A program made the translations under genes and the position numbers. Source: a virus. Taken from it: a DNA stretch of 44,473 nt. Below are positions 12,582 through 30,730 of this stretch, piece by piece. Every line of letters starts with the position of its first letter. Positions within the stretch are counted from its first letter, which is position 1. A model generated the notes under the pieces. That model worked only from the letters and a program-made list of their open reading frames with translations, was not told the DNA's origin and did not search any database. Where the stretch lies: positions 1 to 44,473 of the IMG/VR virus record IMGVR_UViG_3300020190_000108. One strand, given 5' to 3'.

Positions 12582-13582
12582 TAAACTTCCTCCAACTCTA
12601 AATCGCATTTATAAAAATAAACATTCTGAGTTAAATCTCTTCTCACAATGTCTTCTGTGTAGGACTTTACAAATACATTATAACTCGTCTCAACCGGCAA
12701 ATCTTGAGGATTCGTACCGTAACTTATAATTTTCAAAATATGAGAATTCATGTCGCTTGCAATTTCTCTTATATAATCCCTGGCTTCTCTTTTATCAAAA
12801 GTTTCATATTTTTTAGATGGCAACCATTCCCAGCCAATTTTTACAACCATTTTATTTGGAGTACTTGATTTATAATATCTAGATTTTTTAGAATTCCAAT
12901 TTATTTTTTCAACTTTTACTTGACCAACATCATAACTAATATTTCTATTTTGAGCGGTGAGAGGCTTGTCGTCTAAAACGATTAAAGAAACAATTGAACC
13001 TGGGAAGCGGCTTGTTGAGGTTATTCTGAGTATGTCAGCAACAACCAGACCTGTGACTATTGACAAATTTGCTTTTAATAAAAGAATTTCGCCAGCCAGC
13101 AACACAAACAACGAAGAACCAGACAGGTTTGCACTTAAGAGTTTGATAATTTTTGCATTTATGGTTGTGTTTAAATTTGAATCAAGATTAACAGCAGCCT
13201 TTATTATTTTTAAAGATGTAATGTTTGTAGAAAGATTGCCTGTTTGCGTCGCTGGTATGGCATACCTAATGGCAAGAGAAGTTGCGCTTAGGTCCACACT
13301 CGCATCGGCAATTACCAAAGCTTTTAAAATGTAAATTCCAACAACGACCGTTGCGCCATCAATACTGAGTATTGAACTAACTGTTTGAATTAGACCAGCC
13401 AAAGCGGTTAGATTTGATTCAAACGACAGAGCAGAGTCTGCTTTTACAATTTTTCCTGCAACTGCTGTTTGTTCTGACTCAATAGAAAGGACGGCAGCAA
13501 TTCCGATAATTGGGCCTCCGTTGTAGAACTTTTCACCAGAAGCATTTGCTGTAATCTCATATGTAAATTCTTCGTTAGACAT
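12581..13582 (-). CDS. Tail-tip protein with repetitive N-domain and Dit-like C-domain
   Basis: A 333-residue protein with two parts. Residues ~20-210 are a chain of similar segments (for example AVAGKIVKADSALSFES and ALAGLIQTVSSILSIDG) rich in Ala, Ser and Leu. Residues ~230-333 are clearly paralogous to the whole of the preceding 131-residue protein: both share KSRYYKS/KRRYYRS, a W-x-x-LPS element, D-x-R-x-x-RDY and an RR-[DE]-L/I-[ST]-Q-x-x-x-[FY]Y ending in EEV. The start ATG 13582 is in a TAATG overlap with GAGGA upstream. Position after the tape measure and before the hub suggests a distal-tail role, inferred from synteny. Confidence 0.7.
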   Translation of the reverse strand: MSNEEFTYEITANASGEKFYNGGPIIGIAAVLSIESEQTAVAGKIVKADSALSFESNLTALAGLIQTVSSILSIDGATVVVGIYILKALVIADASVDLSATSLAIRYAIPATQTGNLSTNITSLKIIKAAVNLDSNLNTTINAKIIKLLSANLSGSSLFVLLAGEILLLKANLSIVTGLVVADILRITSTSRFPGSIVSLIVLDDKPLTAQNRNISYDVGQVKVEKINWNSKKSRYYKSSTPNKMVVKIGWEWLPSKKYETFDKREARDYIREIASDMNSHILKIISYGTNPQDLPVETSYNVFVKSYTEDIVRRDLTQNVYFYKCDLELEEV

Positions 13583-13977
13583 TACACTTCCTCAAAAACC
13601 ATGTTAACTCTATAATAATCACAACCTTGAGAAATTTCTCTTCTTATAAGAGATTCCGAATAAGATTGGAGATATACATCTATTGTTTCAGCATTCTCAT
13701 CTGCTGTAATTTTTATTTTCATTGGTATTTTATTTGCAATTGCTGTAAGCGACTTTAAATAATCCCGCCCTTTTCTATTGTCTATTGTTTTTGAAGAAAG
13801 AGATGGCAAATAATCCCATTGAAAAGAAAATGTTCTTTTAATAGACCTGTAATATCTTCTTTTGGAGCCAGAGTCCAGTTCAACTTCTGAGGCATTAATG
13901 TTTATCACATCATTTATTTGTCGGCCCTGCTCGGTAATTTCTTGATTATTTAAAGACAAAAAACTTACAATTGTCAT
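13582..13977 (-). CDS. Distal-tail-like structural protein
   Basis: A 131-residue beta-rich protein, first gene after the tape measure and coupled to it by a TAATG overlap with AGAGGA upstream. The core contains RRYYRSIKRTFSFQWDYLP, then GRDYLKSL and SLIRREISQGCDYYRVN. The same fold is repeated as the C-terminal domain of the next gene. In siphophages the gene after the tape measure is normally the distal tail protein (Dit), which forms the ring linking tube and tip. I assign this by synteny and size, not by a diagnostic motif. Confidence 0.68.
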   Translation of the reverse strand: MTIVSFLSLNNQEITEQGRQINDVININASEVELDSGSKRRYYRSIKRTFSFQWDYLPSLSSKTIDNRKGRDYLKSLTAIANKIPMKIKITADENAETIDVYLQSYSESLIRREISQGCDYYRVNMVFEEV

Positions 13978-16900
13978 TACATTCCTCTATTCAAGCCATT
14001 ATATGTTGTTATAACCCTTGATTCAAGACCGGCTTGTTTTTGGTTGGCTGGGACAACCTTTACATTGTATTCCCTCATCATTGAATTAAACCATTCTTTT
14101 TCACCAATAAAGTTATCAACATAGAAGTTATAATTATGAGTACTTTCAGAATTTAGACTTTGTACTCCAACTCCTCCGTTTACAATTTTTGCATATGTTG
14201 ACATTGGTGGAACATACTTTGGTATTTCCGGGACAGAGATGTTGCTGACATAGCCACCGACTTTGTATTGTTTAGCCCCACTAAATATCCCTTTATTTAT
14301 TCTTGAAAGGAGATCAATACCGTATTTATCAACTGATGCTTTGTTAATAACATATTCTCCGCCATGAAGAATTGCTGGCACTCCAAGGTCCGACAGACCT
14401 GTGATCCGCCCCCCTTGGAAGCGTCCTTTTGCTCGGTACCCGTCTAAGTAAAGCTGTCTTTTTCTATAAACATCTTCTCCGCCGGGGAAAAATTCTTTTC
14501 TTGATTTTGCATCCCAATCAAGCGGGTTACGAAGTGCCTTTTCCGATCTTGGCTTCCACCCCTCAAGTCTTAATTTTTTTGATTCATTTGGTTTTGCTAT
14601 AGTAGTCCAGCCCCCAAGACCTACCGAATCTTTCTTAGTGTCAGCAGTTTTCTTGGTCCAGTTTTCGTCCATAAAATTAGAGTCCCAACCAAGAGCAGCC
14701 ATTCTATTAGCAACCAGCATTTGTTGCAAAGGGGACGCTTGACCTGCTGTTTGTGGATTGCCGTATAGCAATGTACCGCCAAAGTCTTTCCAAGCTTTAT
14801 TATTTATACTTAAGCCACCAGTTTTTTTCTTAGAAGTATAGCCAACTTTATCCGCGTCCTCTGCCCAGCCGTGCGCTGATTCTTTTGGCTGTACCAAATT
14901 CCACCATTTTTCGGATAAACCACCGTTTTTCTTTTGTTTTTCAAATTCAGCTCTTTCTTGTGCAACTTGTTTGTTTTCCCCTATTTGTTTTCCAAATTCT
15001 TTTACAATTCCACCCTTAAAGAATCTTGGGATTAAACCACCAGTAAAACTTCCGTCAGGATCGGGCGGGAGACCTCTCTCGATCCGCAGCTGGTCTAGGA
15101 GTTCTTGTATCTCATCTTCTCTTGAACTTTGAATATATGCTATCTCTTCTGAACTCAAGACAAGGCGAATGTTGTTTAAGGTTCTGTTAACGTTTTCTCT
15201 CATCTCGTCCACGATCGCGGCCGTCTCTTCAATGGCTCTTCTTTCTGCTTCTCTATATGCCATTTCTGCATTTTCTAATTCAATGTCTCTCATGGAGTCT
15301 GCATGCTGCTGAGTTTCAGATGTTTCAGCTCTTCTTGTGGAATTAGTTGCTATTCTTCTTGGCAGTGGTTGTGCCCATGGAGAAGAAGCACCATCAGCGG
15401 CATCTGGATGTACTCTTGTATTTGTTGGAATCTTTTCTTGCAATGGTTTTAAGATTCCTCTAGCTTGGTTGCGATACTGCGCTAAGTGAGCAACAACCGT
15501 TTCCACTCTTAATCTTTCATACATATCAGATAATGGATTCTTCTGTAGGGCAATATGACTGCCCCTCCAAAGGTCCAACATCTTTACTTTCCAGGGTATA
15601 TTTAACCACGTTTGCGCAATATCGTTTTGGGTACCAGCGAGATCGCCCCCAGTTATTCGCCAGTCAACACCAGGCAACATCTCACGAACAGACCGACCAA
15701 AATTCTCAGAAAAAGGATTTGTGCTACCTGATCTGGCCATAGTTATATTCCTAGGAACAATAACCCTATCAAAAAGAAATGCCATACTTTTGAGCATTGC
15801 TTTTAATGTAGAGCGGTTCGCCATCGGGTTCCTTGGGTCGTTTGCCGAATAGAGACCTGAAATTCCTATCTCATTCCCTCCAGTGTGATAACTCATAGAA
15901 ATAAGTCTCCTAAACACTGCTTCAGACTGAGGGTCCGAAAGTAAGTTCATATCGCCCCTCGGGGCAAAGGCGGGATCCATATTCCTCAGGAAATCTAGTA
16001 TGTCTGTTCGTCTTTTTTCATCTAATAATTGAAAAACATTAAAGCCGTCAGGATCGGGGCCAAGACCAAAAACATATTCATTTCCTTTTTCTGCTTGTTT
16101 TATTATTCTTTTAATTTCATCTAAAGTCAATTCATTTGAGAACGGTATTGATCTACGAACAAATTCAGAAATTTTTTTTACAAGAACTGCGACAGGATCT
16201 GTTTGATTTAACACATCTCTTATTCTTGTAGTAGAGTATAATTCATCAATTAATGCTCGACCTTCTTGATCTATCCGAAGACTTTCCCCGTATTCTTGCC
16301 AAGTAAGAGGAATTCTTCTAGGTATACCTGGAATATCAGCCGCAGAAAGCGTCTGATTCGCTCCAGGCAAATTAGCCGAATACATCCGGTCAAGGGTTTG
16401 TCTAATTTCAGCAAGCCTATCTGAAGTAGTCAATGGACCATGAGAGCCAATCATTATTCCTCTTTCAACTTGGGTTGCAATCCTCATGGCTTCTTCTTGT
16501 TGTCTTAGCAACAACTCTCGCTGCTCCTCTAGCGCTCGTCTTTGTGGGCTTGTTGGTCTTGCTATGGGGTTCTTTAGTGTTGGTCTCAATTCAACGGGCG
16601 TGAGGTCTCTCATCCTCCCTGGAGACAGTGGTCTATAGCCGAATGCTGGGAAACCCATCAGAGGATCTGAGCGTTGGCTGGGTGATTGCGGACGTTGATA
16701 AATCCACCGATCAATTCCCAGATAGTCGTCCACGACGCGCCTATAATTGGAAGTTATATTTGTGTCTAATATTGGATTATTGAGACCAAAATAAGACCTA
16801 AAATTATTTGGTATATTTTTTATATAATTAGTAAAATTAGAATATTTTTGTATTAAAAGACTGCCAAGAGTTCGGCTTACAAACCTTTCAGCAAAAAACT

Positions 16901-19900
16901 TTTGAAGAAATGACTCATATTGTGGCGGTTCATCTGGTAAAAAAGCGTCACGAAATGATGGGGGTCTTGGGATTCGGGCGGGACCTCGGAAAAATCGATC
17001 AATTGAGTAATTCCGATTGGCCGGTTGTGATCTCAAAAAATCAAGAAGCTCTTCCCTTCGCTCACTTGCCACTAAAGCATTGAAAATTGGGCTAGGGGGA
17101 TCTCCTTGCATCTGTCCCCAAGGAGGGCGGGGAATATCAGATCCAGGTCTCAATATATCAAAGGCCGCACTTCGCCACCGAGGGGGGGAAGTTCCATAAG
17201 AAACATTTATAAAAGTATCTTCCAACTCACGAACACTGCCAAAGTGTTCTTTGGCCATTTTCCTATAAGCCAATTGATCTTTAATAGCTTTTAAGTTCAA
17301 TTTTGCTGGTTTAATAAATTTATTAATTAAAGGTTCTTTTATTTGCATTTTTGGCATTACCTGCCCTTGCATAAAAGATCCAAGCTTGCTTAATTCTGGA
17401 GTTGCATAAAGCCCCAGAGCTCCCGCAACCGATGAGGGTGTCTTTGAAAGAGAATTGCCAAGATTCATTCTTGCGTACAATTCATCGCCCCGTCCCGCAA
17501 GGGATTTAGAAATCCTAGAAACTAGATTTGGTGCAACCTTTGTGCCAACTGTTTTTGCAATTGGTTTTAATAGTTTTGCACCCGTTAGAAGAGCAACAAC
17601 AGAACCGGCAAGAATACCAACCTCTTTCAGCCTTCTCTTTCCAGATACTTTTTCACCAGTTTCAATATCTTTGCCAAAAACGACTCTTGATGCAATTGGC
17701 AATAATTCAATTGGGTTTATCAAACGAGCTCCAAAACCGAAAGCTTTCCAAGCTTTACCAAAAGTTGAGTTTTGAAAGTCTTCTCTTATTTTTGCAAGTT
17801 TTTGGTCTTTTAATGGATCTGTGTAAGAAACGCTTGGCGTTTTCGCACTCGCAGCAAATTGTGCAGGGTTGTTAACTGCATATCTGATTCTGTCTCCAAT
17901 ATCTTCTTTGTCTGTTTTTTTCTTTGCTTTTGTTATTGGAGTTAAACCAACTTTGCCTTTTGATTCATCAAGAATCCCGCCCTTTGCTGAACCGACTCTT
18001 CCACCCGTAAAATAACCTTTTGTTTTATCGAATACGCCTTGATTGATATTTTGAAGCATTCCGCTACCATATTTATCAACAGCACTCTTTCTTACAACAT
18101 ATTCTCCACCATGTAGAACTGCGGGAATTCCCTGATGCATTGGACCGGTCGTTGGACCGCCTCCTGAATAATTAATTGGACCTCCGTGGAAGGCTATCGG
18201 AGTTTTACCTCTTGAACCACCAGCATTTTGTTTGAGACCACCAGCATTCTGTTTGAATTGGTTTGGGTTGATGTTTGTTGGGTATAGAGAAACCTCAACA
18301 AGTGATGGGTTAAGATATGCCTTATTTATAAAACCACTCAACTCATCTGTAGCAACCTTTGTCCAGTCTCGCCAAGGGTCTGTTGACTTTGAACGAGTTC
18401 TTGACCAGTACAAACCCACAGCAGCATGGTGACCAGTATCGGACAATGCTCCCCGTGCGCCTGAACCTGCTCCTGGTGCGCCCGTTGTTGTTGTCGTTGT
18501 TGTTGATTCACCAGCGGCTTCAAGTTCAGCCATTGTATCTTTAATTGCTTTTTTAACCGCTTCTTTGATTGCCAGTTTTTCAAGAGATTTGTTCATTTTT
18601 TGAACAACGCCGTCCATTGCAGAGCCTATTCCTGTTTGCGCCTTCAAAAGTTCTTGTTTTACAGATTCATTGGCATCAGCAATTGCTTTTGTGAAAAGAC
18701 TCTTCAAACTCTTTGGATCGTCTCCTTGGTATTTTGATTCAAGATATGTATTTAAAGCATCAAGACCTGTCCCATAAGCGGTCTGGATAGAACCACCAGG
18801 GGCGAATGCCGCTGTAATTGCGGTTCCTTGACCGGTGAGCATTTGTCCTGTAATACCCAAAAGCGATTGAGCATTTCCACCAGTTCCGGTATCAAGACCA
18901 AATTTATTTCTGGCTACAGTAATGAGGCTATCAAAACCTGCGGAGAAGAAACCAACGGCTCCGGTTGTGGAATCCATACCGGCTTGTATTTGTGCTGGAA
19001 GGGCTGTAAAGAAATTCTGAAATGCCGTAGATATATCTGAAGATGTTGTTTTTGCTCGCTCCGCAATTGTTTTAAATCTTGTTTCAAAGTCTTGTTGCGA
19101 GATCGCCCCCAGCGATGTTTGTGTTGAAATAAATGTTTCAAGTTCCTTGATTGATTCATCAAACAGTTTTGAAGCTTCTTCCCTTTGATTTCTTATTATT
19201 GTTATTGCATTTGATCTGTTATATGACTGCAATTCTTTTGTGCGCTCTTTTTCAAGATTATTCATTTCATCAGTGAAATCTTGCTGGGTCTTCATTTCCT
19301 CTAAATCAAGATTTCTTGCATCGTCAATACGACCTTCATAAATAGCAAGCGCCCTGTTCTTTTGGTAGTTTTGACTTTGTAATTCTCTTTCTCTTCTTCT
19401 CTTTCTCCTATCAGCTTCATATTCTTCTGTTTTTGTAAGTCTTTCTTCTGCTTCCGCGAGGGCTTCAATACCAGCAATTTGATCATCAAAAACCTTAAGA
19501 GCAGCGTCTTTTTGTTGATTAAGAGCATCAACCAGCTCATTACCCAATTGAGATAATGTATTGCTGAGGTTAGAAACAACAGCATCATAGAAACTCTTTC
19601 TTACTTCTTCTTTGGCTTGTGCTGTGGCCTGAGACACCGCTTCTGCAATTTTTTTACCAGCAGCATTGGCGGCTGCTGGATCTTTGAAAGAGTTCAAAAA
19701 TGCTTTTAAGAGACCCTTGCCAACTCCTGGCATTAGCGTCTCAATCTTCTCTCCTAACTTTTTTATGCCGACCTTTGCCTGATCGCCTAAGTTTCTAATG
19801 ACATTAGAAGTTTTACCAATTAATCCATTAATTTTATCTCCAACAAAATCAATTGCTCCAGAAATACCGTTTTGCATTGCTTGTAAAGCACCACGGATCT

Positions 19901-22900
19901 TGCCCCCCAACCCTGGGATCCAGCCAAGTCCTTTGGCAAGAAATTTAAGAGCTTCAAAGAAAAGGTTGTTAATGGCTTTTAATGACCATCTAGCCGCATT
20001 AACAACACCAATAGGAATTTGTTCAAGCAGGTTAACTGCCGATATAGCCAAGAGGGTGATAATTTCAATTACCAGTGGCGCGAAGTACTGTGTTAGGAAA
20101 TTCAAAAGCATCTTAAAAAGTTTTTTCAACCCTTCTCCAATCTGGCTAAATGCTTTTTCAATCATTTCACCACCCTTGGTTGAGTCACCTTTGAATTTTT
20201 CAAACAAGCCCCTAACCAAAAGAATAAATCCACCGATCACTTTCCAGACAGCTGATGCAATAGTTTTGAAAACGTTTAATGCAACGCTTACAAATGGAAC
20301 AACATATTTTTCAACAAACTCTTTAATGTTTTCGGCGGCCTTTTTAACATTTTGGCTGAACCTTTCAAGCCCTTTACCCATATCGTCCATTGATTCTCCG
20401 CCCTCTTTTCCTGCTCCGAGGAAACCTGCAAAAAGATCAAAAAATGGGGCAAGGAGCGCAATTGCAGTATCTTTAACCACAAGAAGTGTTTTTTTGAAAT
20501 TTTCCATTGCTCTTTTACCAGCTTCACCAAAATTACCAATAGTTTTTTTAATTGTGAAGAAGCCAGTAATGATTAATCCAATAACAAACAAAATTGGCAA
20601 GCCAACTTTGGGAATTCTTAATAAACCTTGGACAAGAGATGTGAGCGCTTGGTCTGCAACCATACCGAACTGACCCATGTTGTATGTAAGTTGGTTTATC
20701 AAACCAGAAGACAAGAAGCCTGCCTGTCTTTGCAAACCGGCACTTGCTTTTTGAGCCCCACTCCTGAATCTATCTCTAAAAGTAGGTCCGGTTCCATCCC
20801 CCCTAAGCCCAGAACCTGCTGCTCTTAAACCAGCAAGCGCTGCTGCTCCTCGGGACGCGCCAGATGCTTTTGCATCTTCCATTGCTTGTTTAGCAGCTTC
20901 TCTTAATTTTCCTAAGCCAGTAGTGGCCGTAACAAAAACATTGGTTATTGTTTTACCAAAAGGTATAAAGCCAAGAGCAAAACTTGCTATTCTTCCATGA
21001 GCAAAAATAATGTGTTTTGCAAATTGGGCACTTCCAAGACCAAACATTTTAACAGCAATACGAGCCGCTTCCAAACCTTTTATTAAACCTGTAGTATCAA
21101 GTCCAAAATTTTGTCTAATTCCTGAAAGGGCAGGATTCGTTACAAGATTTCCTTGTGCATTGCGGACATTCAGAGGTGTAGAATGAACAGTTAATGCTCC
21201 GTAAATGTTTCCAATACTTGCAATATTTTTTGTAAGCCTATCAAAGAGTTTACGAGCTGCTTCACCGGCTTTCTTTTGTCCTTCTGTTGCTGTTAGCTGT
21301 TGTCCTTCAATTATCGTTCTTTCAAGATTTGCAATGAAATCTATTGCTGATTTTCTTAAAAGACCGCGAACTGCCAAGATTGGCGCAAGGGCTGGCCCAA
21401 CAGTTACGCCTACGCCAAGTCTCGCAGGGGTAAGACCTGCAAAGAATCTTCGCACTCGCCCAGGAGTTCTACCGGGAGGCGTTGGACCGCTTGGAGGCGT
21501 TGGACCGCTTGGAGGCGTTGGGGGTGGACCGCTTGGAGGCGTTGGACCGCTTGGAGGCGTTGGACCGCTTGGAGGCGTTGGGGGTGTTGGGGGAGTGCTC
21601 CCTCCACCGGCTCCTCCTCTTGCTGATCTGGCGGCCCTTACTGCCGCAACTGTTTCTTTTATGTCAGAAATTTCATCACGAATTAGTATTTCAGCTTCAT
21701 CAAGTTCATCATCAATTATTGTTCCAAAAAACTCAATAGCTTCTGAAGTGTCTCGTATCCCATCTGAAATGTCATGTACCTCGGTGCTGACTCTGTGTCT
21801 AAGGTCTTCCATTTCTTCACCAACTCTTTTGACCCATTGTTCAATATCAACACCCTCAATTTGAGTAACCGGCAGCGCCCCCAGTGCTGTAATTAAATCA
21901 CTTAATTCATCAATTGTTGCTGTTTTAATTTTTGACAAACGATCTTTAATGTTGTCAATTGAATCTTTAAAGATTCTTGCTGGTTTACCAAGTTCTTCTG
22001 TTGCCACAGCAATCATTGAATCAATGTCCATACCCGAGTATGAACGACCAGTGAATTTTTGCAACTGGGCGATAAGATCAATAATTTGCTCAGATGTTCT
22101 GCTTTCTATTCTATAAAATTCTTCAATTAATTCATGAATCACATAATCAAATTCATCAGCAAAATCTGGAATGGGAGTGGAGGCAACATCGTCAGCAACA
22201 TCTGTGATGGTCTCTTTAGCAACCTCTATCTTTCTTTCAACCTCAACCGCAACTTCTTTCAAAGCTTCGGCTGGTGTTTTTGCAACATCGGCTGGTACGG
22301 GCACCGGCTTGATTTCTGCTGTTGCTGTTTCAATTGGTTCTATAGCAACAGTTGTTATTGATGCATCAACAACAATACCCATCTCTTTAAGTTTTGCGAC
22401 AAGCGCTTGAATCTTTTGTGCAGAGTTTCCACCAGCAGCCTTACCTCTTACATCAAAAGCACGAAGAATATATCTTAATGTGTCGCTTTGGAACTCAGCA
22501 AAGTTTTGAGAAGCAACTCCTGTTTCAATAATTTGCTGTTTAATTCTTTCAGCCAAAATAAGTCTTTCATCTCTGCTTATACCAAACCCTAAACTAGCTG
22601 TTTTTGATGGAGCGCCAGCAACTGTCTTTTCTGGAGTTGTCGGCGTGGAGACTGCAGTTTCCTTTGGTTGGAATCTTGATATGGTTCTTGCCTTTGCCTT
22701 TGCAAGATCCATTTCTTCATTAAGAGTTTTTTGGAACAGAACGAGGCGCTTAAATAATTCTTCTATACCTCCACCTTTTTCAAATATTTTAATGTTTTTA
22801 AGTTTTGCAAACGCCTCAATTGGATTTCTAAGGGCATCTTGAATTGTTAAACCAATCTTTGCTAATTCATCTTTTAATTTTGAAACTTCATCTATTGCCA

Positions 22901-25900
22901 AAGAGCCAGCAGTTGTCGCTATTACATCAAGCCCTTTACCTTGGGCTTTAAGCGTCTCTAAGAACGCAATAAGCACATCTTGTGCAACTTGCAAAGATTC
23001 TTCAATTTCGGCATTAATTTGACCCAATACCGTTGGACCGTCTGGAACGGCGGCACTTAAAGATTTTGGTCGTGCAGATCTTGGCAGGTCAGTAGGTTGT
23101 TTCTTAAATTCCTCAAGAGGTCTGAATGGAATATCCATTAAAGGCTGCATTGCCGCAAACAGGTCAGGGTATGAGAGGCTCTTGTATTCAGCTTCTTGTT
23201 GAATCGCTTTTAATTGTTTTACATAATGTTGGATTTGACTTGCTGTCATCGTTTCAAGGGACAACCCAGCTTTTTCTATTTTTTTAAAAAGTTCTACAAT
23301 GAGATAATCGGTAGTACCTTTAATTGGAGGCTTAGTTCTTGATCTAATTTCGTTTGCCATCTCTTCCAAAGAGGCAAATTCTCTTGTAAAACTTTTTTGC
23401 TTAGCTTCTTGGTAAACTTCAATAGTTGTTTTTAAAGCTCCAATTAAACTGTCTGCTATATCTTTATCAATCTTGCCAGAACGAGCCTTTTTGATGAGGT
23501 TTAAAATCTGAGTTCTTGCTTCAGCAACTTCTGGTGGTATTTGTTGAGGTCTAATGTCCAAATATGGGTTTGGAGTTTTCCCTGATTGCATCTGCAATTG
23601 AGTAACACCGGGAATTTTTTCCCCATCTCGATATAGAGGCTCATCTTCTCTACGAGCGGCTAGTCGAGCTTTGAACAGCCTTAGGCGACCGCCATATGAT
23701 TCTGATGCCTTTTTCCTTATAACTTTAATTTTTGAAATTTCTTCATTGAGCGTTTTTATTTGAAGGTTGTGTTCTTCAATAGCCTTATCAATTTCAACAA
23801 TTTGAGGATCTGTGGTTAGAACGTTAAAATGTTTTTGCAAATCTCTTCTAACTTTTTCAAGGTCTTTAATCTTTTTTTGGACCGACGCAATTTGCCCTTC
23901 TTTAAATTCAATAGCTTTTGATGCTTGCACCGAGCTCACAAGTTCTAGAATCATTTGTCTTCGCTGTTGTTCATAGAAAGTCAAAAATCCATCAATCTCT
24001 TCTTTGATAGATTGCTCTGCGGCAACAGCTAGTGCATCGTCTTTGTCATACGGGGCTAACTTCTTTGCGAGAGCTGCGCGAGACACCGCTTCGGCATCAC
24101 CCTGTGCTGCAGCAGCTGTTCTGAGGATGTCAGACAAAATAGCAGTCTGTTTGCTCCCACCGCCTGGAACCAAAGCCTGTGCGCCAAAATTTGCTCTTCC
24201 TCTACCAAACTGCTGCAGAGTAGATTTGATTGTTGATATATCCATTTGCAATAAACCTTCAACAGATGCGAGTTGTGGAAGGTTGTCTATATAGACCCTT
24301 TCTATGTCACTTATAGGAATTCTTTCAAAAAGGTTTTGGATGAACTGGAGTGTTTGTGCAACAGATTTTAAACTGAAATCTGTAGTATCAAAAAGTTTTG
24401 CAGCTTCTTGCCAAAAACCTGGTAGAGTAATTTTTAATTTAGAAGCAATATTTCTTATAAGATCGCCTGTAATTCTGACACCACCCTTACTTACTGCTCT
24501 GCCTGATATATAATATGAAGAGGCACCAAGATCTTTTAAAGCACTAAGTATGGCTTGTTCATCTTTTTGAATCAACTCAAGAGTTGTTAAAATGTTTTGT
24601 TTAGCAACTGTTTCATAATTTTTTTGCAAAGTTTGCATTAAAAGAAAAAGATCTGTTGATGTTGCTTCAGCTTGTGTAACAGCATGCAGAACTTTTCCAG
24701 TTGCTGGATCAACAAGGTCAAGACCAAAACCTTGTTTAAAAACTTTATTTAAATCTCTTAAAGCCTGTTCAAGTTTTTGAATTTCTTCATTTATTTTTTT
24801 TAAATTGCTTTCTTCTGTTTCAATTTGTTGTTGTAAAATTTTTTTATAATTTTCAAAATTTGATTTTTGAGCAATTTCTGTTGTTAAAGAATTAATTTGA
24901 GCTTTTAAAGCATTAGCTTTTTTTTGATAAGCTCTATATGATGCCATCCCCGCTCTATCATCTTTATCGGGCACGCCCTTAGATTCTAGATTTTTTTCAA
25001 TTTTAGACAGTTCAGTTTCTAACTCTTTCAAATGTTCTTCTGCTTGTTGGCGCTCTTGTTCAACAACATCTTGAGTTATTTTTTTTAATTTTTCTTGAAG
25101 TTTTTTAATATTTTTTAAACCTTTTGATTGTTTTAATCTGCGGAGCTCGTTTTGTACTCCTTTAGCATCTTGAACCAAACCCTCCTTAACAATTTTCATT
25201 TCTTCTGGGGTTAAAGTTTCCAGAGAGCCGAGCCTTGCCCGAAGATCTCCCCCCATAAAACCTTTGTCTCGGGGCTGACGACCACGAAACCGAGCGCGTG
25301 CAATTTTCCGGTATTGCTCAATCTGCTCTTTGTTTCTTTGAGCCATTGCCTCTCTTTCGGCTATCAAGCCTTCTGGCGACATCGCCTCGCGCAAAGAAAC
25401 AATGACAGAAGCGTCGTCTCCGCCAAACTTGGTTCTTAATTTTTCTGTTAATGATTGAATTTCTCTCTGATGAGAAATCAAATCAGAGCGAACTTTTATT
25501 TTCTGGTCTTTTAAATCTTTTTGTATTTTTTTCTCTTCGGCTATTGTCTTATCAACAATAGCGACCGCCTCGGCTTGAATTGATTCTTCTGCTCTCATTG
25601 TTGGAGAAAGTTGTCCAATCAAAGACCTTCTAACTTGACTTTTTGCTTCAAACAATGATTTAAGTTTGTTCATTTCTTCATTATTTCCAGATCTGATTGC
25701 TTCACTTATTTGTTGTGAAATCAATGCCTGTTCTGCTTCAATTTGAGAAATTTCATTTTTAATTTGTGGCTGTTGTGCAACAAGCGAGTCGTATTCAGAA
25801 ACTGCTTTTGTTGTTAATTCTGCAATTTTATTTGCTATTGCTTCGTCTCTGTTACTTTCAAGTGTTAAAATACTTTGGACCTTCTCTTGAATTTGTTGAT

Positions 25901-28900
25901 CAAAATCTTTCAATCGTTCTTGTAATTTTTCAACACCTCTAAGACGATCTTGTAATGTCATTGCAAGAGATGGTTTTGTTTCTTTGCTCACGCCACCCTT
26001 GGTGTCTGAAATTTTTGGACCGGCAGTTCCTGCTATGTCTGATGCCTCAAGCTCTTCTCCAATCAAAGCCATTGCTGTATTTGTTGCAGCTTTTTCACTT
26101 ATTACACCGCCACCAGAAACACCCATAACTGCCGAGGTGTGTCTTTTAGAAATTTGCAGTAATCTTGTTAATTGTTTTAAAATGTCAGCAATTTTTAAAA
26201 CTTGATCTTCAAAACCTTTTATTTCTTTGAATACGCCTTTGACTACTGGGGCAAAATCACCAGGTATAGAAATCTTTACCATATCTGCTAATTCTTTTAT
26301 AGAATCAAGACCTAGGCCACCAAATTTTTGAGATATGTCTGCTAAAATTGCTTCAAAACCACCCTTTGGGTCATCCGTTAGAGCTTTAGCATTACGCAGT
26401 CTATTCATCATCGCTTTAAACCCTTCAGGAGCGTTTATTGTACTAGCTTTAACTTGCTGCATTAATTCAACAATAGCCCTGACAAGCGATCTTGCAATTT
26501 CTGAGGTAACACTCACATACTCGGCTTTAACAACCGACTGAGCATCTAGCACACTGGTCTCAATGTCTGCGAGGTCATTTGCAATTTTTAATAAATCTTT
26601 TGCCCCCCGACCAACGAGAGAAACCGCATTTGCTGATAAAGTTTCAGAAATTTTTTGGTACAGATCATCCAAAGCTTTAGTGGCTCTAGAGCTGAGGTCT
26701 GATGATTGTTCTTTAAGTTTTTTAGAAGGTTTGGTGACAATAGATTTAACTTCACCAACAATATCTTCAGCTTCTTTGGCAATCGTCTTTGCTAATGTTT
26801 CATCGGTGGCTTCAGCAACTCTTGCGCCTGCATCCTCTGTTGTCGTTGTGGTTTTACGAGTCTTTTTTGCTGGCTTAGCTTCGCCTGCTTCAGCCGCAAC
26901 TTTCTCTCCAGTTGTTTCTATCGTCTCAGATAGAGCAGTATCGGTTGCTTCAGCAACATGACCCGTCGCTGTAGTAACTGCTGCTGTAGACTTGCTTGGA
27001 CCTCTAGGAGCACCTGGCTTAGAAGCAACTGACTTTGTTTTGTTATAAATATCTTTTATAAAATCTTCTAATGAAATATTAAGAGCTGTTGTGCGATTTT
27101 TAAAATCATTCATAATTTTTGTAATATTAAATTTCTTTCCTAAGTTTAACCCCTTGAGTTCGCGTATTTTTGCGACCATTATTACCTGATCTGAACTGAG
27201 CGCTTTCAAAGCATCTTCTGTAGGAGCCACAGCTATGTTGTATATGTCTTCAGCAGAAAGAAGTGTCTTGGGAATCTTCGGCGCTCTTGGTTTTGTTCCA
27301 GTTTTTGGTGCACCGCTTGGAGCAGGGGTTGGTGCAGGTGCTGCTGGTGTTGGTGCAGGTGTTGGTGGGGTTGGTGGGGTTGGTGTGCTGGCACCCCCTC
27401 CTGAGCCGCCCCCAATCGGTGGCTTCATCGGTACCGGGGGCCTGCCGCCCCCACCGCCTCCACCAGAACCTCTGCCTCCAGGAGGTCTTGGAGCGGGGAC
27501 CACGGTGGACGGGTCAAAGCCGTATGCTCTCAACACATTAAAGAACTCCTCAGCCATTCCCCGACCAATAGCAACAGCCTCTGGCATCATTGATGCCATT
27601 GCATTCCCGGCACTATCTACAATCGTTTTATAAAAACCGCCAAGCCCAAGTAATTGTTGAGATGGGGACATCTGCGCAAGGGCTGCTTCTATCTGCATTC
27701 TTGCATCTGGCATCAGGCCAGAAAAATCTGGTTGTTGTGTTTTATCAATATTCAGTTTACGCAGTATTCTGTCAGATTCCTTTCTCTGTCTAGCCGAACC
27801 ATCTGCAAGTCGGATTGCTTTTTGCAATTCTTGAAATTCTCTTTTTGTTGCTTTAAGGTAAAAATTATTTCCAATCTGTGTCAGTCTATTTCTAAATTTA
27901 TATAAAAGATCAGAAGATGTTAGCAACTCTTCCCTAACGGGGATTAATTCCCTTTTAAGTTTTGAAAAAGGGTTTAAACTAAATGTTTTCATTGAAAAGA
28001 ACGCAGACTTTAATTGGAAAAATGCACCTACCAAACGAACAATTGGACCCAACATTGCAACAAAAAGTATTGTTATACCCATAACTTTTTTGAATGTTGG
28101 GTCAAGTCCACGAACGAACTCTGCTAGTTTTTGTAAAATTGGAACTATAAACCCTAATATATCATTAAGCACAGGAACAATTTCTCGGCTTAGTGCTTTC
28201 AAAGATTCTCTTGCTCTTTGGTATCTTACTTCGGCAGAATTAAGAGATCTTTTTATTTCTTCTTCATACTTAGCAGCAGCCGTTGTTCCCTCGCCACCGC
28301 CTTGAACAGCGGTAAACAACACTCTACCGGATTCTGTTTGAATTTTACCAATTTGGTCATTACCTGCTTTTTGCTGCTCAACTAAATAGCGAGCAAAGTC
28401 ACCTCTAGCTTTGGTAAATGAATCTGCAATTTGCTTGTCGCCAGATTGTGAAAGTCTTACAACATTAGACAAATCTTCAAATTTATCGATTTGCATTTTA
28501 GAATATTTATCTCCAAGGCCTGCTGCTGCAGCTCTGCTTTGGACATAGGTTTGCAACAGATTACTGAGTTCTCCCTCTGTTGTTATGGCTTCTTTTTGAT
28601 TGATAGCAATTGCCTTCAGTCCGCTTGTCATTTGATCTTGGAATTGAGCAAGGTTTTGAATAGCAACTTCCATTCTTGGTCCTTGACGAACACCGAAAAG
28701 CCTTGCAAAAAATTCAAGAGTTCCTTGGGCACCCAAAGAGCCTCTCTTCATCGCATTAAAGCTGTCTGCTAATCTCTGTAGACTCTGAACTCCAACACCA
28801 GACTCAACATTAAAATCTTTATAACTTGCTTTTAGGGTATCAATCATTTCACTGTTTTGCTTGGTCGCAGCAATCAATCTTTGTAGAGAAACTTTTACGG

Positions 28901-30065
28901 AGTTAGCGGAAGCACCCAATTGAAAACCAGCAGAGACCATCGGCACCAGAAGAGCAGCAGCCTCGGTCATTGACAAACCAAAAGATGTTGAAGCAGCCGT
29001 TAGTTCTGGAAAGCCCTTTGCAATTTCTTTAAGAGATAGGGCAGTTTTGTTTTCAACCATGTTGAACATTGCCAACTGACCATTTAATTGTGCAATTACA
29101 TCAAGATAATCCTCATTGCTCTGAACCAGCAAACCCTGATCTCTTCTAACACGCAAAATATTTTGATACAAAGATTTTATGAATTCTTGTGATTGTGAAA
29201 TATCAACATTACCAAGCTTTTCTACGGCAGCAGTGATATCAACCAACCCAGCAAGGGCATCAATTGATTCAATACCCAACTCTGCGTAGTCACCAGCAAG
29301 ACCCTGGGTTAACTCTCTTGCGACACCATATTTCAAACTTATTGCGTCAAGTTCTTTGCCAAGACTAGATATTGCTCCTTGAAGGGACATGACTTTGCGA
29401 CCATTATCAATAAAAGCATTGCCATTTTCAATAACCTCAACGCCTGTTCTTTTAGACGCTTCGGCAATATCTTCATATGAGTCACTAATAAGCTTTGTAG
29501 TTCTAATGGTTTCTGTTTCAAGCCTTCTATAATTGGCAAAAGAATTTCTAAGCCAGAAGGCAATCGGGGCGGTAAGTCCCATTGTAATCCGGTTGCCAGC
29601 ATAAGAAACTTGGGTCGCCAGACTGTTATAGGCTCTCGCTTGAGCCCTAATATCTTGAGTTCTTACAAGTTTGCTTAAATCCTTTTCAACAGCCTGTTGT
29701 GCCCTTAAAGCAACAACAACATTATTAACAGATCTAGCCTGGGCGGCACTGGATAACGAGCCGGAACGAATTTGTCTTTCAAGCTCTTCTGCAACTTTTT
29801 TCGTATTGCGAAAGTGTCCAGCAAGCACAACTTGATGCTGCGAGGCAATCAATGTGCTCTGTGCAAGGTGGCTATTTGTAGCCGATGTTGATCTAAGCGC
29901 TTTTTCTAAAGCCTGCGCTGAGTTTGCTGTTTTTAAAGACCTTGAGCCAAATACAGATAGCGAATGAACAACCTGTTGTACTTCTCTGGACATGTTGCCC
30001 AGAGCGGTTGTAAGAGCGTCATTGACAGTCGCTTCTACCCTAACTCTACCTGATTGATCAGCCAT
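13977..30065 (-). CDS. Giant tape measure protein (5362 residues) with embedded Rpf-like domain
   Basis: One uninterrupted frame covers about 36% of the window. The N-terminus has the TMP core: MGLTAPIAFWLRNSFANYRR (~160), then LTAASTSFGLSMTEAAALL (~355). A hydrophobic segment at ~655-681 (GITILFVAMLGPIVRLV) and another at ~3154-3172 (PILFVIGLIITGFF) could insert into the host membrane. Much of 1200-2800 is long Lys/Glu/Gln-rich coiled coil, interrupted by Gly/Pro-rich linkers at ~852-918 and ~2830-2862. Near the C-terminus ~5052-5130 resembles an Rpf/transglycosylase domain with a candidate catalytic E5062. An HGGEYV module occurs twice (~3978 and ~5227). It sets tail length, occupies the tube lumen and is probably released at infection. 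No good Shine-Dalgarno precedes ATG 30065; a TAATAT box lies 12 bases before it. Confidence 0.95.
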   Translation of the reverse strand: MADQSGRVRVEATVNDALTTALGNMSREVQQVVHSLSVFGSRSLKTANSAQALEKALRSTSATNSHLAQSTLIASQHQVVLAGHFRNTKKVAEELERQIRSGSLSSAAQARSVNNVVVALRAQQAVEKDLSKLVRTQDIRAQARAYNSLATQVSYAGNRITMGLTAPIAFWLRNSFANYRRLETETIRTTKLISDSYEDIAEASKRTGVEVIENGNAFIDNGRKVMSLQGAISSLGKELDAISLKYGVARELTQGLAGDYAELGIESIDALAGLVDITAAVEKLGNVDISQSQEFIKSLYQNILRVRRDQGLLVQSNEDYLDVIAQLNGQLAMFNMVENKTALSLKEIAKGFPELTAASTSFGLSMTEAAALLVPMVSAGFQLGASANSVKVSLQRLIAATKQNSEMIDTLKASYKDFNVESGVGVQSLQRLADSFNAMKRGSLGAQGTLEFFARLFGVRQGPRMEVAIQNLAQFQDQMTSGLKAIAINQKEAITTEGELSNLLQTYVQSRAAAAGLGDKYSKMQIDKFEDLSNVVRLSQSGDKQIADSFTKARGDFARYLVEQQKAGNDQIGKIQTESGRVLFTAVQGGGEGTTAAAKYEEEIKRSLNSAEVRYQRARESLKALSREIVPVLNDILGFIVPILQKLAEFVRGLDPTFKKVMGITILFVAMLGPIVRLVGAFFQLKSAFFSMKTFSLNPFSKLKRELIPVREELLTSSDLLYKFRNRLTQIGNNFYLKATKREFQELQKAIRLADGSARQRKESDRILRKLNIDKTQQPDFSGLMPDARMQIEAALAQMSPSQQLLGLGGFYKTIVDSAGNAMASMMPEAVAIGRGMAEEFFNVLRAYGFDPSTVVPAPRPPGGRGSGGGGGGGRPPVPMKPPIGGGSGGGASTPTPPTPPTPAPTPAAPAPTPAPSGAPKTGTKPRAPKIPKTLLSAEDIYNIAVAPTEDALKALSSDQVIMVAKIRELKGLNLGKKFNITKIMNDFKNRTTALNISLEDFIKDIYNKTKSVASKPGAPRGPSKSTAAVTTATGHVAEATDTALSETIETTGEKVAAEAGEAKPAKKTRKTTTTTEDAGARVAEATDETLAKTIAKEAEDIVGEVKSIVTKPSKKLKEQSSDLSSRATKALDDLYQKISETLSANAVSLVGRGAKDLLKIANDLADIETSVLDAQSVVKAEYVSVTSEIARSLVRAIVELMQQVKASTINAPEGFKAMMNRLRNAKALTDDPKGGFEAILADISQKFGGLGLDSIKELADMVKISIPGDFAPVVKGVFKEIKGFEDQVLKIADILKQLTRLLQISKRHTSAVMGVSGGGVISEKAATNTAMALIGEELEASDIAGTAGPKISDTKGGVSKETKPSLAMTLQDRLRGVEKLQERLKDFDQQIQEKVQSILTLESNRDEAIANKIAELTTKAVSEYDSLVAQQPQIKNEISQIEAEQALISQQISEAIRSGNNEEMNKLKSLFEAKSQVRRSLIGQLSPTMRAEESIQAEAVAIVDKTIAEEKKIQKDLKDQKIKVRSDLISHQREIQSLTEKLRTKFGGDDASVIVSLREAMSPEGLIAEREAMAQRNKEQIEQYRKIARARFRGRQPRDKGFMGGDLRARLGSLETLTPEEMKIVKEGLVQDAKGVQNELRRLKQSKGLKNIKKLQEKLKKITQDVVEQERQQAEEHLKELETELSKIEKNLESKGVPDKDDRAGMASYRAYQKKANALKAQINSLTTEIAQKSNFENYKKILQQQIETEESNLKKINEEIQKLEQALRDLNKVFKQGFGLDLVDPATGKVLHAVTQAEATSTDLFLLMQTLQKNYETVAKQNILTTLELIQKDEQAILSALKDLGASSYYISGRAVSKGGVRITGDLIRNIASKLKITLPGFWQEAAKLFDTTDFSLKSVAQTLQFIQNLFERIPISDIERVYIDNLPQLASVEGLLQMDISTIKSTLQQFGRGRANFGAQALVPGGGSKQTAILSDILRTAAAAQGDAEAVSRAALAKKLAPYDKDDALAVAAEQSIKEEIDGFLTFYEQQRRQMILELVSSVQASKAIEFKEGQIASVQKKIKDLEKVRRDLQKHFNVLTTDPQIVEIDKAIEEHNLQIKTLNEEISKIKVIRKKASESYGGRLRLFKARLAARREDEPLYRDGEKIPGVTQLQMQSGKTPNPYLDIRPQQIPPEVAEARTQILNLIKKARSGKIDKDIADSLIGALKTTIEVYQEAKQKSFTREFASLEEMANEIRSRTKPPIKGTTDYLIVELFKKIEKAGLSLETMTASQIQHYVKQLKAIQQEAEYKSLSYPDLFAAMQPLMDIPFRPLEEFKKQPTDLPRSARPKSLSAAVPDGPTVLGQINAEIEESLQVAQDVLIAFLETLKAQGKGLDVIATTAGSLAIDEVSKLKDELAKIGLTIQDALRNPIEAFAKLKNIKIFEKGGGIEELFKRLVLFQKTLNEEMDLAKAKARTISRFQPKETAVSTPTTPEKTVAGAPSKTASLGFGISRDERLILAERIKQQIIETGVASQNFAEFQSDTLRYILRAFDVRGKAAGGNSAQKIQALVAKLKEMGIVVDASITTVAIEPIETATAEIKPVPVPADVAKTPAEALKEVAVEVERKIEVAKETITDVADDVASTPIPDFADEFDYVIHELIEEFYRIESRTSEQIIDLIAQLQKFTGRSYSGMDIDSMIAVATEELGKPARIFKDSIDNIKDRLSKIKTATIDELSDLITALGALPVTQIEGVDIEQWVKRVGEEMEDLRHRVSTEVHDISDGIRDTSEAIEFFGTIIDDELDEAEILIRDEISDIKETVAAVRAARSARGGAGGGSTPPTPPTPPSGPTPPSGPTPPSGPPPTPPSGPTPPSGPTPPGRTPGRVRRFFAGLTPARLGVGVTVGPALAPILAVRGLLRKSAIDFIANLERTIIEGQQLTATEGQKKAGEAARKLFDRLTKNIASIGNIYGALTVHSTPLNVRNAQGNLVTNPALSGIRQNFGLDTTGLIKGLEAARIAVKMFGLGSAQFAKHIIFAHGRIASFALGFIPFGKTITNVFVTATTGLGKLREAAKQAMEDAKASGASRGAAALAGLRAAGSGLRGDGTGPTFRDRFRSGAQKASAGLQRQAGFLSSGLINQLTYNMGQFGMVADQALTSLVQGLLRIPKVGLPILFVIGLIITGFFTIKKTIGNFGEAGKRAMENFKKTLLVVKDTAIALLAPFFDLFAGFLGAGKEGGESMDDMGKGLERFSQNVKKAAENIKEFVEKYVVPFVSVALNVFKTIASAVWKVIGGFILLVRGLFEKFKGDSTKGGEMIEKAFSQIGEGLKKLFKMLLNFLTQYFAPLVIEIITLLAISAVNLLEQIPIGVVNAARWSLKAINNLFFEALKFLAKGLGWIPGLGGKIRGALQAMQNGISGAIDFVGDKINGLIGKTSNVIRNLGDQAKVGIKKLGEKIETLMPGVGKGLLKAFLNSFKDPAAANAAGKKIAEAVSQATAQAKEEVRKSFYDAVVSNLSNTLSQLGNELVDALNQQKDAALKVFDDQIAGIEALAEAEERLTKTEEYEADRRKRRRERELQSQNYQKNRALAIYEGRIDDARNLDLEEMKTQQDFTDEMNNLEKERTKELQSYNRSNAITIIRNQREEASKLFDESIKELETFISTQTSLGAISQQDFETRFKTIAERAKTTSSDISTAFQNFFTALPAQIQAGMDSTTGAVGFFSAGFDSLITVARNKFGLDTGTGGNAQSLLGITGQMLTGQGTAITAAFAPGGSIQTAYGTGLDALNTYLESKYQGDDPKSLKSLFTKAIADANESVKQELLKAQTGIGSAMDGVVQKMNKSLEKLAIKEAVKKAIKDTMAELEAAGESTTTTTTTGAPGAGSGARGALSDTGHHAAVGLYWSRTRSKSTDPWRDWTKVATDELSGFINKAYLNPSLVEVSLYPTNINPNQFKQNAGGLKQNAGGSRGKTPIAFHGGPINYSGGGPTTGPMHQGIPAVLHGGEYVVRKSAVDKYGSGMLQNINQGVFDKTKGYFTGGRVGSAKGGILDESKGKVGLTPITKAKKKTDKEDIGDRIRYAVNNPAQFAASAKTPSVSYTDPLKDQKLAKIREDFQNSTFGKAWKAFGFGARLINPIELLPIASRVVFGKDIETGEKVSGKRRLKEVGILAGSVVALLTGAKLLKPIAKTVGTKVAPNLVSRISKSLAGRGDELYARMNLGNSLSKTPSSVAGALGLYATPELSKLGSFMQGQVMPKMQIKEPLINKFIKPAKLNLKAIKDQLAYRKMAKEHFGSVRELEDTFINVSYGTSPPRWRSAAFDILRPGSDIPRPPWGQMQGDPPSPIFNALVASERREELLDFLRSQPANRNYSIDRFFRGPARIPRPPSFRDAFLPDEPPQYESFLQKFFAERFVSRTLGSLLIQKYSNFTNYIKNIPNNFRSYFGLNNPILDTNITSNYRRVVDDYLGIDRWIYQRPQSPSQRSDPLMGFPAFGYRPLSPGRMRDLTPVELRPTLKNPIARPTSPQRRALEEQRELLLRQQEEAMRIATQVERGIMIGSHGPLTTSDRLAEIRQTLDRMYSANLPGANQTLSAADIPGIPRRIPLTWQEYGESLRIDQEGRALIDELYSTTRIRDVLNQTDPVAVLVKKISEFVRRSIPFSNELTLDEIKRIIKQAEKGNEYVFGLGPDPDGFNVFQLLDEKRRTDILDFLRNMDPAFAPRGDMNLLSDPQSEAVFRRLISMSYHTGGNEIGISGLYSANDPRNPMANRSTLKAMLKSMAFLFDRVIVPRNITMARSGSTNPFSENFGRSVREMLPGVDWRITGGDLAGTQNDIAQTWLNIPWKVKMLDLWRGSHIALQKNPLSDMYERLRVETVVAHLAQYRNQARGILKPLQEKIPTNTRVHPDAADGASSPWAQPLPRRIATNSTRRAETSETQQHADSMRDIELENAEMAYREAERRAIEETAAIVDEMRENVNRTLNNIRLVLSSEEIAYIQSSREDEIQELLDQLRIERGLPPDPDGSFTGGLIPRFFKGGIVKEFGKQIGENKQVAQERAEFEKQKKNGGLSEKWWNLVQPKESAHGWAEDADKVGYTSKKKTGGLSINNKAWKDFGGTLLYGNPQTAGQASPLQQMLVANRMAALGWDSNFMDENWTKKTADTKKDSVGLGGWTTIAKPNESKKLRLEGWKPRSEKALRNPLDWDAKSRKEFFPGGEDVYRKRQLYLDGYRAKGRFQGGRITGLSDLGVPAILHGGEYVINKASVDKYGIDLLSRINKGIFSGAKQYKVGGYVSNISVPEIPKYVPPMSTYAKIVNGGVGVQSLNSESTHNYNFYVDNFIGEKEWFNSMMREYNVKVVPANQKQAGLESRVITTYNGLNRGM
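14240..14385 (-). repeat. TMP internal repeat, copy 2 (HGGEYV module)
   Basis: This stretch encodes PAILHGGEYVINKASVDKYG followed by a GIF-x-x-x-KQY-x-x-GG tail, around residue 5227. It matches a second module 1250 residues upstream in the same protein. HGGEYV-type modules recur in many actinophage tape measures; their role is not known to me. Confidence 0.8.
18000..18135 (-). repeat. TMP internal repeat, copy 1 (HGGEYV module)
   Basis: This stretch encodes PAVLHGGEYVVRKSAVDKYG followed by GVFDKTKGYFTGG, around residue 3978. The alignment with copy 2 has few differences and shares the trailing Gly-Gly. The two copies bracket a region of about 1200 residues that looks unlike the coiled-coil tape. 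Confidence 0.8.
21481..21576 (-). repeat. 18-bp tandem repeats encoding a PPSGPT linker in the TMP
   Basis: Five copies of an 18-base unit (plus-strand gttggaccgcttggaggc) occur here, one separated by six extra bases. They encode repeated PPSGPT around residues 2830-2862 of the tape measure. The proline-rich linker ends the N-terminal coiled-coil half. Near-identical units suggest slippage-driven expansion. Confidence 0.88.
27310..27510 (-). repeat. Gly/Pro low-complexity linker in the TMP
   Basis: This segment encodes residues about 852-918, with poly-Gly (GGGGGGG), then alternating TP/PP and AP repeats. It separates the N-terminal membrane-segment region of the tape measure from the long coiled coil. 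The linker must be unstructured or polyproline-helical. Confidence 0.85.
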
Positions 30066-30110: not shown

Positions 30111-30730
30111 TTAATTAGTCTCAAATCCAAGACCAAATGGCAATGCAACAGCTGCATCTTTTGTAATAACCTTGGGTGGTTCTGGGTCAAACCAATCATC
30201 ATTAAAGTCAACATCTGCGCCCTGTGCCAAGGCAGCAACTTTTATTTGATTATTCATTTCATTATTACAAGCGCGATATAAGAGGAATAGTTCTTCAAGA
30301 GTTAAATTTGCCTCTAATTCTTGAAGACTTTTCCACGCGCCAGTTTTTATAAATATTTCTGATTCATACTTGAGGATCGGTATGTCTCCCCATTCTAGGG
30401 GGGTTCCACTACCGTCCTCGCCGGTTAGGAAGGGTCGGACCCCATTGCAGCAGACATTAATTCACCGAAACAGCGAAGATCAAGTGCGTCTTCAAGCGCA
30501 TCCTTGTCCTCAGCAAGATCGGGATCAACAGCAAGAAGAGCAACTGAGGCTGCTTCCACCATCACATCAATATCTTCATCATTAAGGTTGTCCTCTGTCT
30601 TCAGATCCTTAACAATTTTCATGAACTTTCTAAGATTGCGGATTGTAAGAGGGCGGACTGTTCTTTTCTTGCCATCGGCAAAAACAATTTCTTTACCCAA
30701 AAACAAATCTTTATTCTTTTCTGTTGCCAT
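30111..30730 (-). CDS. Tail assembly chaperone long form (gpGT-like), made by -1 frameshift
   Basis: The short chaperone frame ends at 30425, but the -1 frame is open from 30461 down to TAA 30113-30111 and has protein-like content: LTGEDGSGTPLEWGDIPILK, then SLQELEANLTLEELFLLYRA and a D-rich DVDFNDDWFDPEPP. This extension has no start codon or ribosome site of its own. It fills the otherwise empty stretch before the tape measure gene. In siphophages gpG and gpGT chaperones coat the tape measure and recruit tail tube subunits. Slippage at GGG (30440-30443) would give about 206 residues: 97 from frame 0 and about 109 from the -1 frame. An alternative slip at CCT/CCC (30431-30434) gives nearly the same product. 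The coordinates span both frames. Confidence 0.82.
30425..30730 (-). CDS. Tail assembly chaperone short form (gpG-like)
   Basis: A 101-residue acidic, helical protein starting at ATG 30730 after AAGGAG. The N-terminus (FLGKEIVFADGKKRTVRPL) and the helical middle (RNLRKFMKIVKDL, then VMVEAASVALLAV) match the size, fold impression and position of gpG-type chaperones between the major tail protein and tape measure. It is expected in large excess over the frameshifted long form. The frame ends at TAA 30425 just after the candidate slip sites. The preceding transcript terminator means it is either transcribed by read-through or from its own promoter. Confidence 0.85.
   Translation of the reverse strand: MATEKNKDLFLGKEIVFADGKKRTVRPLTIRNLRKFMKIVKDLKTEDNLNDEDIDVMVEAASVALLAVDPDLAEDKDALEDALDLRCFGELMSAAMGSDPS
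30431..30443 (-). promoter_or_regulatory. Programmed -1 ribosomal frameshift site (candidate)
   Basis: A frame-0 GGG codon is preceded by G (ATG GGG), so tRNA-Gly can slip back one base and still read GGG. A few bases on, CCT preceded by C allows the same for tRNA-Pro (CCT to CCC). The -1 frame is blocked by TGA at 30464-30462 and frame 0 by TAA at 30427-30425, so the shift must occur between. There is no canonical X-XXY-YYZ heptamer. Confidence 0.65.

Follow-up and report, generated by a model that had tools for sequence, protein, structure and literature searches.

A 44,473-base viral record of IMG/VR (IMGVR_UViG_3300020190_000108; the whole stretch is called the window here) contains a gene that, as judged from sequence, encodes a siphovirus tape measure protein (TMP) of 5,362 residues. 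The protein is ordinary in kind and extreme in size. It probably belongs to a long-tailed, non-contractile actinophage in which the whole protein acts as the ruler for a tail of about 0.8–0.94 µm. The TMP is one of a family of uncultured giants, whose tails are probably among the longest of any virus, and it is not the longest in that family. The tail length is predicted from the genes alone, while the family membership, the gene order, the integrity of the frame, the modules and the relatives are read directly from the sequences.

The TMP gene lies on the minus strand (13977..30065). Near its N-terminus the protein matches PhageMin_Tail (PF10145; 36.1 bits, cut-off 33.2, E = 7.7e-9), and seven distinct TMP families of PHROG match over its two halves (E ≤ 0.01). 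The neighbouring genes, also on the minus strand, follow the pattern of siphovirus TMP loci, with a tube protein and a chaperone overlap upstream, the very long gene itself, and tail-tip proteins downstream. The major tail (tube) protein (193 aa; 30829..31410) matches PHROG major tail protein families and is 37% identical to annotated major tail proteins of Streptomyces phages; an AlphaFold model of it, made with 21 family rows, had a mean pLDDT of 46.8. The putative tail assembly chaperone (101 aa; 30425..30730) is named from its position and its -1 frame overlap, and phrog_10504, to which it corresponds, is a family of unknown function. Its -1 frame extension (30111..30461), comparable to that of lambda G/GT, runs open through the chaperone stop, with a slippery site that is a candidate only, to a point about 48 nt short of the TMP gene. 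A crude rule tried on 28 loci found a chaperone in 12 of them, and all 12 show this open -1 frame; the 12 include the window as well as L114 and L115, which are two copies of one phage. Directly after the TMP gene are two tail proteins of 131 and 333 aa (12581..13977), which matched no Pfam or PHROG family and whose relatives also follow a TMP of 6,438 aa. Farther downstream, a tail-tip protein of 1,315 aa (8661..12608) carries PA14 and lectin-like Laminin_G_3 domains. An earlier sequence-only reading had named the gene a TMP, and the PF10145 match above cut-off, the PHROG families, the chaperone overlap, and the tube and tail-tip neighbours bear this out.

Three modules of the TMP are common to the family, namely an N module (residues 1–733; 27867..30065), a core (residues 3489–3830; 18576..19601) and a C-terminal module (residues 5223–5362; 13977..14399), again all on the minus strand, as are the features that follow. 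All three are conserved, and the N module is also related to TMPs of Streptomyces and Gordonia phages. The middle (residues 734–3488; 19602..27866) ranges from 574 to 3,033 aa within the family. The Gly/Pro linkers claimed by the earlier reading are present in its sequence, at about residues 860–945 (27231..27488) and 2826–2863 (21475..21590), and hydrophobic stretches at about residues 3154 and 3329 precede the core module. Between the core and the C-terminal module is a C-proximal insert (residues 3831–5222; 14400..18575). A first copy of the motif GIPAxLHGGEYVV (residues 3974–4017; 18015..18146) is found near the start of the insert, and the second begins at residue 5223, in the C-terminal module; an Rpf-like transglycosylase domain occupies approximately residues 5055–5124 (14694..14903). 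The combined fraction of Pro and Gly is highest in the insert (0.149; N module 0.082, middle 0.124, core 0.079) and is 0.112–0.131 overall in three TMPs of isolates. AlphaFold, run on residues 1001–2100 without an alignment, returned helices and no strands with a mean pLDDT of 43, a low-confidence model that serves as a hint only. In a helical-periodicity profile, most windows of the middle and core, and most of those in the insert as well, scored above one shuffled control. The profile is not a measure of coiled coil, and since periodicity is high in the insert too, it does not tell the middle and core apart from the insert.

The family was surveyed in IMG/VR. A scan with the tube protein gave 191 relatives; 80 of the 191 were taken, and 48 of these together with two other records were followed. 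The tube protein was matched in 48 of the 50 followed records, and 40 stretches were fetched, namely 38 that follow a tube gene and two that are fragments of the window's gene; ten with little downstream sequence were left out. A scan with an N-module alignment gave 143 relatives, from the 80 of which that were taken 17 more records were added and 16 fetched. The final set holds 39 intact, non-identical TMPs including that of the window (38 clusters at 95%). Excluded were L115 (a broken copy of L114), L126, L132, L141, L143 and L240 (cut by contig ends), the fragments L152 and L153, and copies with identical first 60 residues and length. TMP starts were set at the first start codon, so that some lengths may be slightly high, and the sampling leaned towards the window's close relatives and towards contigs that extend far downstream.

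The 39 intact TMPs range from 1,878 to 6,438 aa (median 4,169). At least 4,000 aa is reached by 24 of them, and 30 equal or exceed the 3,327 aa of the Gordonia phage Hotorobo. Four are longer than the 5,002 aa of Thermus phage P23-45, at 6,438, 5,362, 5,358 and 5,068 aa. The longest is a 6,438-aa frame, L224:127-19440 (minus strand), found in the single record IMGVR_UViG_3300020193_000009; its tube protein is 74% identical to that of the window, and related tail-tip genes are nearby. Tube proteins are 67–92% identical to the window's in 20 aligned relatives, and the TMPs of these relatives and L224 run from 1,911 to 6,438 residues. A more distant branch of 56 loci has shorter TMPs: in the 26 records examined the open frames measure 1,005–3,340 aa, none of which reaches 4,000, although frames near contig ends may be cut. 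A search of the literature on giant and longest TMPs and on freshwater actinophage TMPs, which most subscription papers lay outside, found no published TMP longer than that of P23-45. The claim that the window's TMP is among the longest therefore stands in that it exceeds P23-45, and fails in so far as it implied an extreme of its kind; that view is rejected on the 6,438 aa of L224.

Two parts of the TMP account, independently of each other, for its varying length in the family: the middle, and a C-proximal insert that is either present or absent. From core to C-terminus the length is at most 229 aa in 16 of the 39 TMPs and at least 937 aa in the other 23, with none between, and across the 39 the lengths of middle and insert are uncorrelated (r = 0.10). 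In the N-module tree the window groups with L114 and L116 (100/100). L116 has no insert (113 aa) and yet has the longest middle, 3,033 aa. L234 and L237 carry inserts of about 2,100 aa, and in the tree they fall within a group of short TMPs, next to L235, in which this stretch measures 229 aa. These placements indicate that large inserts were gained or lost more than once. The N modules of L234 and L235 are 71% identical, and one insert of about 1,900 aa separates the two TMPs.

A wall enzyme was found in the insert of at least seven of the 23 insert-bearing TMPs. An Rpf profile built from the window, L114, L138, L234, L237 and a separate Rpf-like protein encoded in record G004 found Rpf-like transglycosylases in seven of the 39 TMPs, namely the five seed TMPs and the non-seeds L226 and L227. 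The domain of the window taken alone matches PF06737 below the cut-off (E = 0.014) and an RpfC model weakly (E = 0.033), whereas a five-row family profile that includes it matches the RpfB structure 1xsf at E = 4.1e-6; the domain of L234 lies above the Pfam cut-off (27.5 against 27). The insert of L114 (IMGVR_UViG_3300044634_002660, TMP at 10658-16237, plus strand) also contains a complete-looking sortase (PF04203, 2.4e-21), which adjoins the Rpf-like domain and has candidate catalytic His, Cys and Arg residues by eye. No earlier report of a sortase inside a TMP was found in the literature, as judged by titles and the openings of abstracts.

Other inserts were less informative. The Pfam scan covered 12 of the 23; at E ≤ 0.05 it gave nothing in the inserts of L147, L134, L148 and L224, and weak or low-complexity matches only in those of L133, L135 and L226. 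The insert of L142 resembles ordinary TMP sequence, and eight other inserts resemble that of L142. The empty scans and the L142-like inserts mean that the term cargo is not proven for all inserts. The GIPAxLHGGEYVV motif occurs three times in L114, and L224 has three C-module matches; in the other insert-bearing TMPs a single C-module match was found, so that duplication of the motif is not a general rule. No whole insert turned up as a gene of its own among the other frames of 150-1500 aa that the fetched stretches contain. Part of the L133 insert (L133:5154-8963, minus strand) is 27–44% identical to parts of the tail-tip proteins of L117, L120 and L121, a likeness that suggests domain exchange between tape measure and tip. 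In L127 a separate 1,039-aa gene at 11366 (plus strand) follows a TMP of 3,015 aa; it gave no match in the insert-to-frame comparison.

Publications give a calibration of 0.15–0.175 nm of tail per TMP residue. With all residues counted, the predicted tail of the window's phage is 804–938 nm, and that of L224 at the same calibration is 966–1,127 nm. Leaving out the stretch between the two motif copies would reduce the window's tail to 617–720 nm, and counting up to the core end only would reduce it to 574–670 nm. One tail ring measures about 4 nm, and a tail of 870 nm would need about 200 rings. The scaling of tail with TMP length, assumed in the earlier reading, holds in isolated actinophages. 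Hotorobo, with a TMP of 3,327 aa and a tail of about 540 nm (PMC4982279), gives 0.162 nm per residue, and Katyusha, with a TMP gene of 9,084 bp and a tail of about 500 nm (PMC4919401), gives 0.165. Among the Thermus phages, the P23-45 TMP of 5,002 aa includes an N-terminal RNA polymerase and is associated with a tail of more than 800 nm (PMC10770324, PMC9022992), and the tail of P74-26 is called nearly 1 µm (PMC10034513).

In mycobacteriophage TM4 the hydrolase motif is at about residue 853 of the TMP, and deletion of this 114-residue motif shortens the tail of about 200 nm by about 20 nm, where 17 were expected (PMC1796659). Folded enzyme domains can thus count, and the non-coiled C-terminal part of the window's TMP need not be discounted. 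By analogy, TM4 favours counting all residues, although its motif and the insert may occupy different places in the chain. The earlier caution that some residues may not contribute was reasonable; the TM4 deletion argues that they do.

In assembly with the whole protein as ruler, chaperones would coat the TMP, which would use its C-terminal module to dock at the tail tip. Rings of tube protein would then assemble along it until its end, and a terminator would cap the tube, giving the tail of about 0.8–0.94 µm. At infection the TMP would be released from the tail and would cut peptidoglycan with the Rpf-like domain that lies near its C-terminus. Across the family, TMP length would be the sum of the middle and an insert that is optional and in some members carries an enzyme; both parts probably lengthen the tail. 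Several observations weigh against this reading. The insert is missing in 16 of the 39 intact TMPs, the window's being counted in the 39, and the middle has Pro-rich linkers and the low-confidence model (mean pLDDT 43). Counting the insert that separates L234 from L235 would give these near relatives tails that differ two-fold in length; the insert may therefore not contribute. Lambda gpH is trimmed by proteolysis, and such trimming is invisible in sequence.

A different view is that the insert is a cargo cassette carried at the tip which does not set length, so that the tail would be about 570–720 nm, long but not near the record. The all-or-none distribution of the insert, its independence of middle length, the C-terminal motif copies that bound it in some members and the enzymes in some inserts would all agree with such a cassette. 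Against it, the TM4 tail shortens by the hydrolase motif's share when the motif is removed, and whole-length scaling holds both for P23-45 with an RNA polymerase within its TMP and for Katyusha, for whose TMP a putative lytic transglycosylase domain is reported (PMC4919401). On this balance the cargo view is considered rather unlikely, and the whole-protein ruler is preferred. It may be proposed, tentatively and as a possibility that is somewhat doubtful, that tails near or above one micrometre arose in this uncultured freshwater actinophage family not for reach. They would instead have followed, as a by-product, when wall-enzyme cassettes (Rpf transglycosylase, sortase and others) were loaded onto the TMP between C-terminal motif copies.

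An artefact of assembly, in which two genes or two strains were fused within the TMP frame, is very improbable. The frame is open from ATG to stop, as the earlier reading had described it, and record G001 (IMGVR_UViG_3300020578_000067, 63,505 bp) reads through the entire gene in a single frame of 5,369 aa. This copy has a 7-codon insertion in the first Pro-rich linker and differs in 33 further codons; the residue is changed in 23 of the 33, which gives no clear sign of strong purifying selection between the two copies. In a third sample, 3300021376, the gene is spanned by records G002 and G004, which share a 126-base identical overlap inside it. Record G003 and four further records (L110–L113) hold only part of the gene, and each ends at a contig end; among G001–G004 and L110–L113, none was seen to run from the gene into different sequence. 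That several records end inside the gene shows how difficult its assembly is, and of the 33 codons differing from G001, 24 cluster at residues 2680–2809, a pattern that looks like recombination between strains. Nevertheless, a join is made unlikely by the whole, differing copy in G001, by the coverage from the third sample and by the lack of any record diverging within the gene, and relatives of comparable size have the same module order; the artefact is rejected. A giant virion protein other than a TMP is less credible still and is also rejected, for although actinophage podoviruses do have giant genes, such as the 13.5-kb gene reported for Microbacterium podoviruses (PMC8281081), the matches to PF10145 and to PHROG TMPs in both halves, the chaperone overlap, and the tube and tail-tip neighbours strongly contradict it.

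The host is likely actinobacterial. A whiB-like gene is present at 3742-4047 of the window (PF02467, E = 4.4e-13) and a second in record G004 (PF02467, E = 2.8e-18), and WhiB marks actinophages in the freshwater literature (PMC6802176, PMC10202952). The actinobacterial host named by the earlier reading is thereby supported at the level of phylum only. Scans of genome contigs with the tube protein and with the N module found no relative, so that no host can be read from cellular genomes. G004 also carries portal, capsid and DNA polymerase III alpha genes, and a 391-base match at 96.7% suggests that it and the first 22 kb of G002 close on each other, in which case the genome would be about 108 kb. 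Past about 22.6 kb of G002 (L019, L020) the gene content and strand pattern shift. The shift follows a gene that looks PA14-like by eye and has its N-terminal part repeated at the start of G004; either two phages would have been joined at this shared gene, or the genome would be a mosaic. The window (at 44473) and G001 (at 63505) stop at an identical base within one gene, which points to a shared assembly breakpoint or a repeat. At 33785-37689 the window has a tryptophan halogenase (PF04820, 7.4e-104), a 2OG-Fe(II) oxygenase and two unknown genes, a group located between head-tail connector and fibre genes. Genes similar by eye are found in the far part of G002 (about 38.5-41.8 kb), as if the group were a mobile cassette.

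Control of tail length by a protein ruler was worked out in short-tailed phages. The present family offers a natural series, with near-equal tube proteins, TMPs of 1,911–6,438 residues, and an insert that is on or off in near relatives. Such a series would reveal whether enzyme domains that fold add to the ruler, and for what reason tails that greatly exceed a bacterial cell in length evolve. The TMP lengths also suggest that lake phages of Actinobacteria equal or surpass the extreme reported from the Thermus phages of hot springs.

Among known systems, the Streptomyces phage Samisti12 (Stanwilliamsviridae) has a TMP of 2,107 aa with a related N module, less than half the length of the window's, and major tail proteins of Streptomyces phages are related to the window's tube protein. 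Unlike the wall enzyme of the window, that of Samisti12 is a Peptidase_M23 near the C-terminus (5.3e-24), which follows a partial C-module match at residues 1679–1707 (4.4e-6); no published tail length for this phage was found in the literature. The TMPs of the Gordonia phages Demosthenes, Hotorobo and Katyusha are also shorter, at 3,027–3,327 aa. Those of Demosthenes and Hotorobo have an N module related to the window's and no match to the family's core or C-terminal profile. An SLT transglycosylase domain is present in the Demosthenes TMP, and a putative one is reported for that of Katyusha, a phage compared here by description. TM4, as described (PMC1796659), resembles the window in having an Rpf-like peptidoglycan hydrolase inside its TMP; its tail of about 200 nm is unlike the 0.8–0.94 µm predicted here. 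A further parallel is gp96 of P23-45, encoded by a gene of 15,009 bp and compared with the window's TMP by size and domain content. Both are giant single siphovirus TMPs with extra domains in the same chain, and the tail of P23-45 is extremely long. The host phylum of P23-45 differs, and so do the extra domains, which are an N-terminal RNA polymerase and a metallopeptidase in gp96 and an Rpf-like transglycosylase in the window. Neither DxDxD, the signature of two-barrel RNA polymerases, nor HExxH occurs in the 5,362 residues of the window's TMP, which is thus not of the P23-45 polymerase type. With 5,002 aa, gp96 is the largest published TMP that could be verified, and the TMP of the window is longer.
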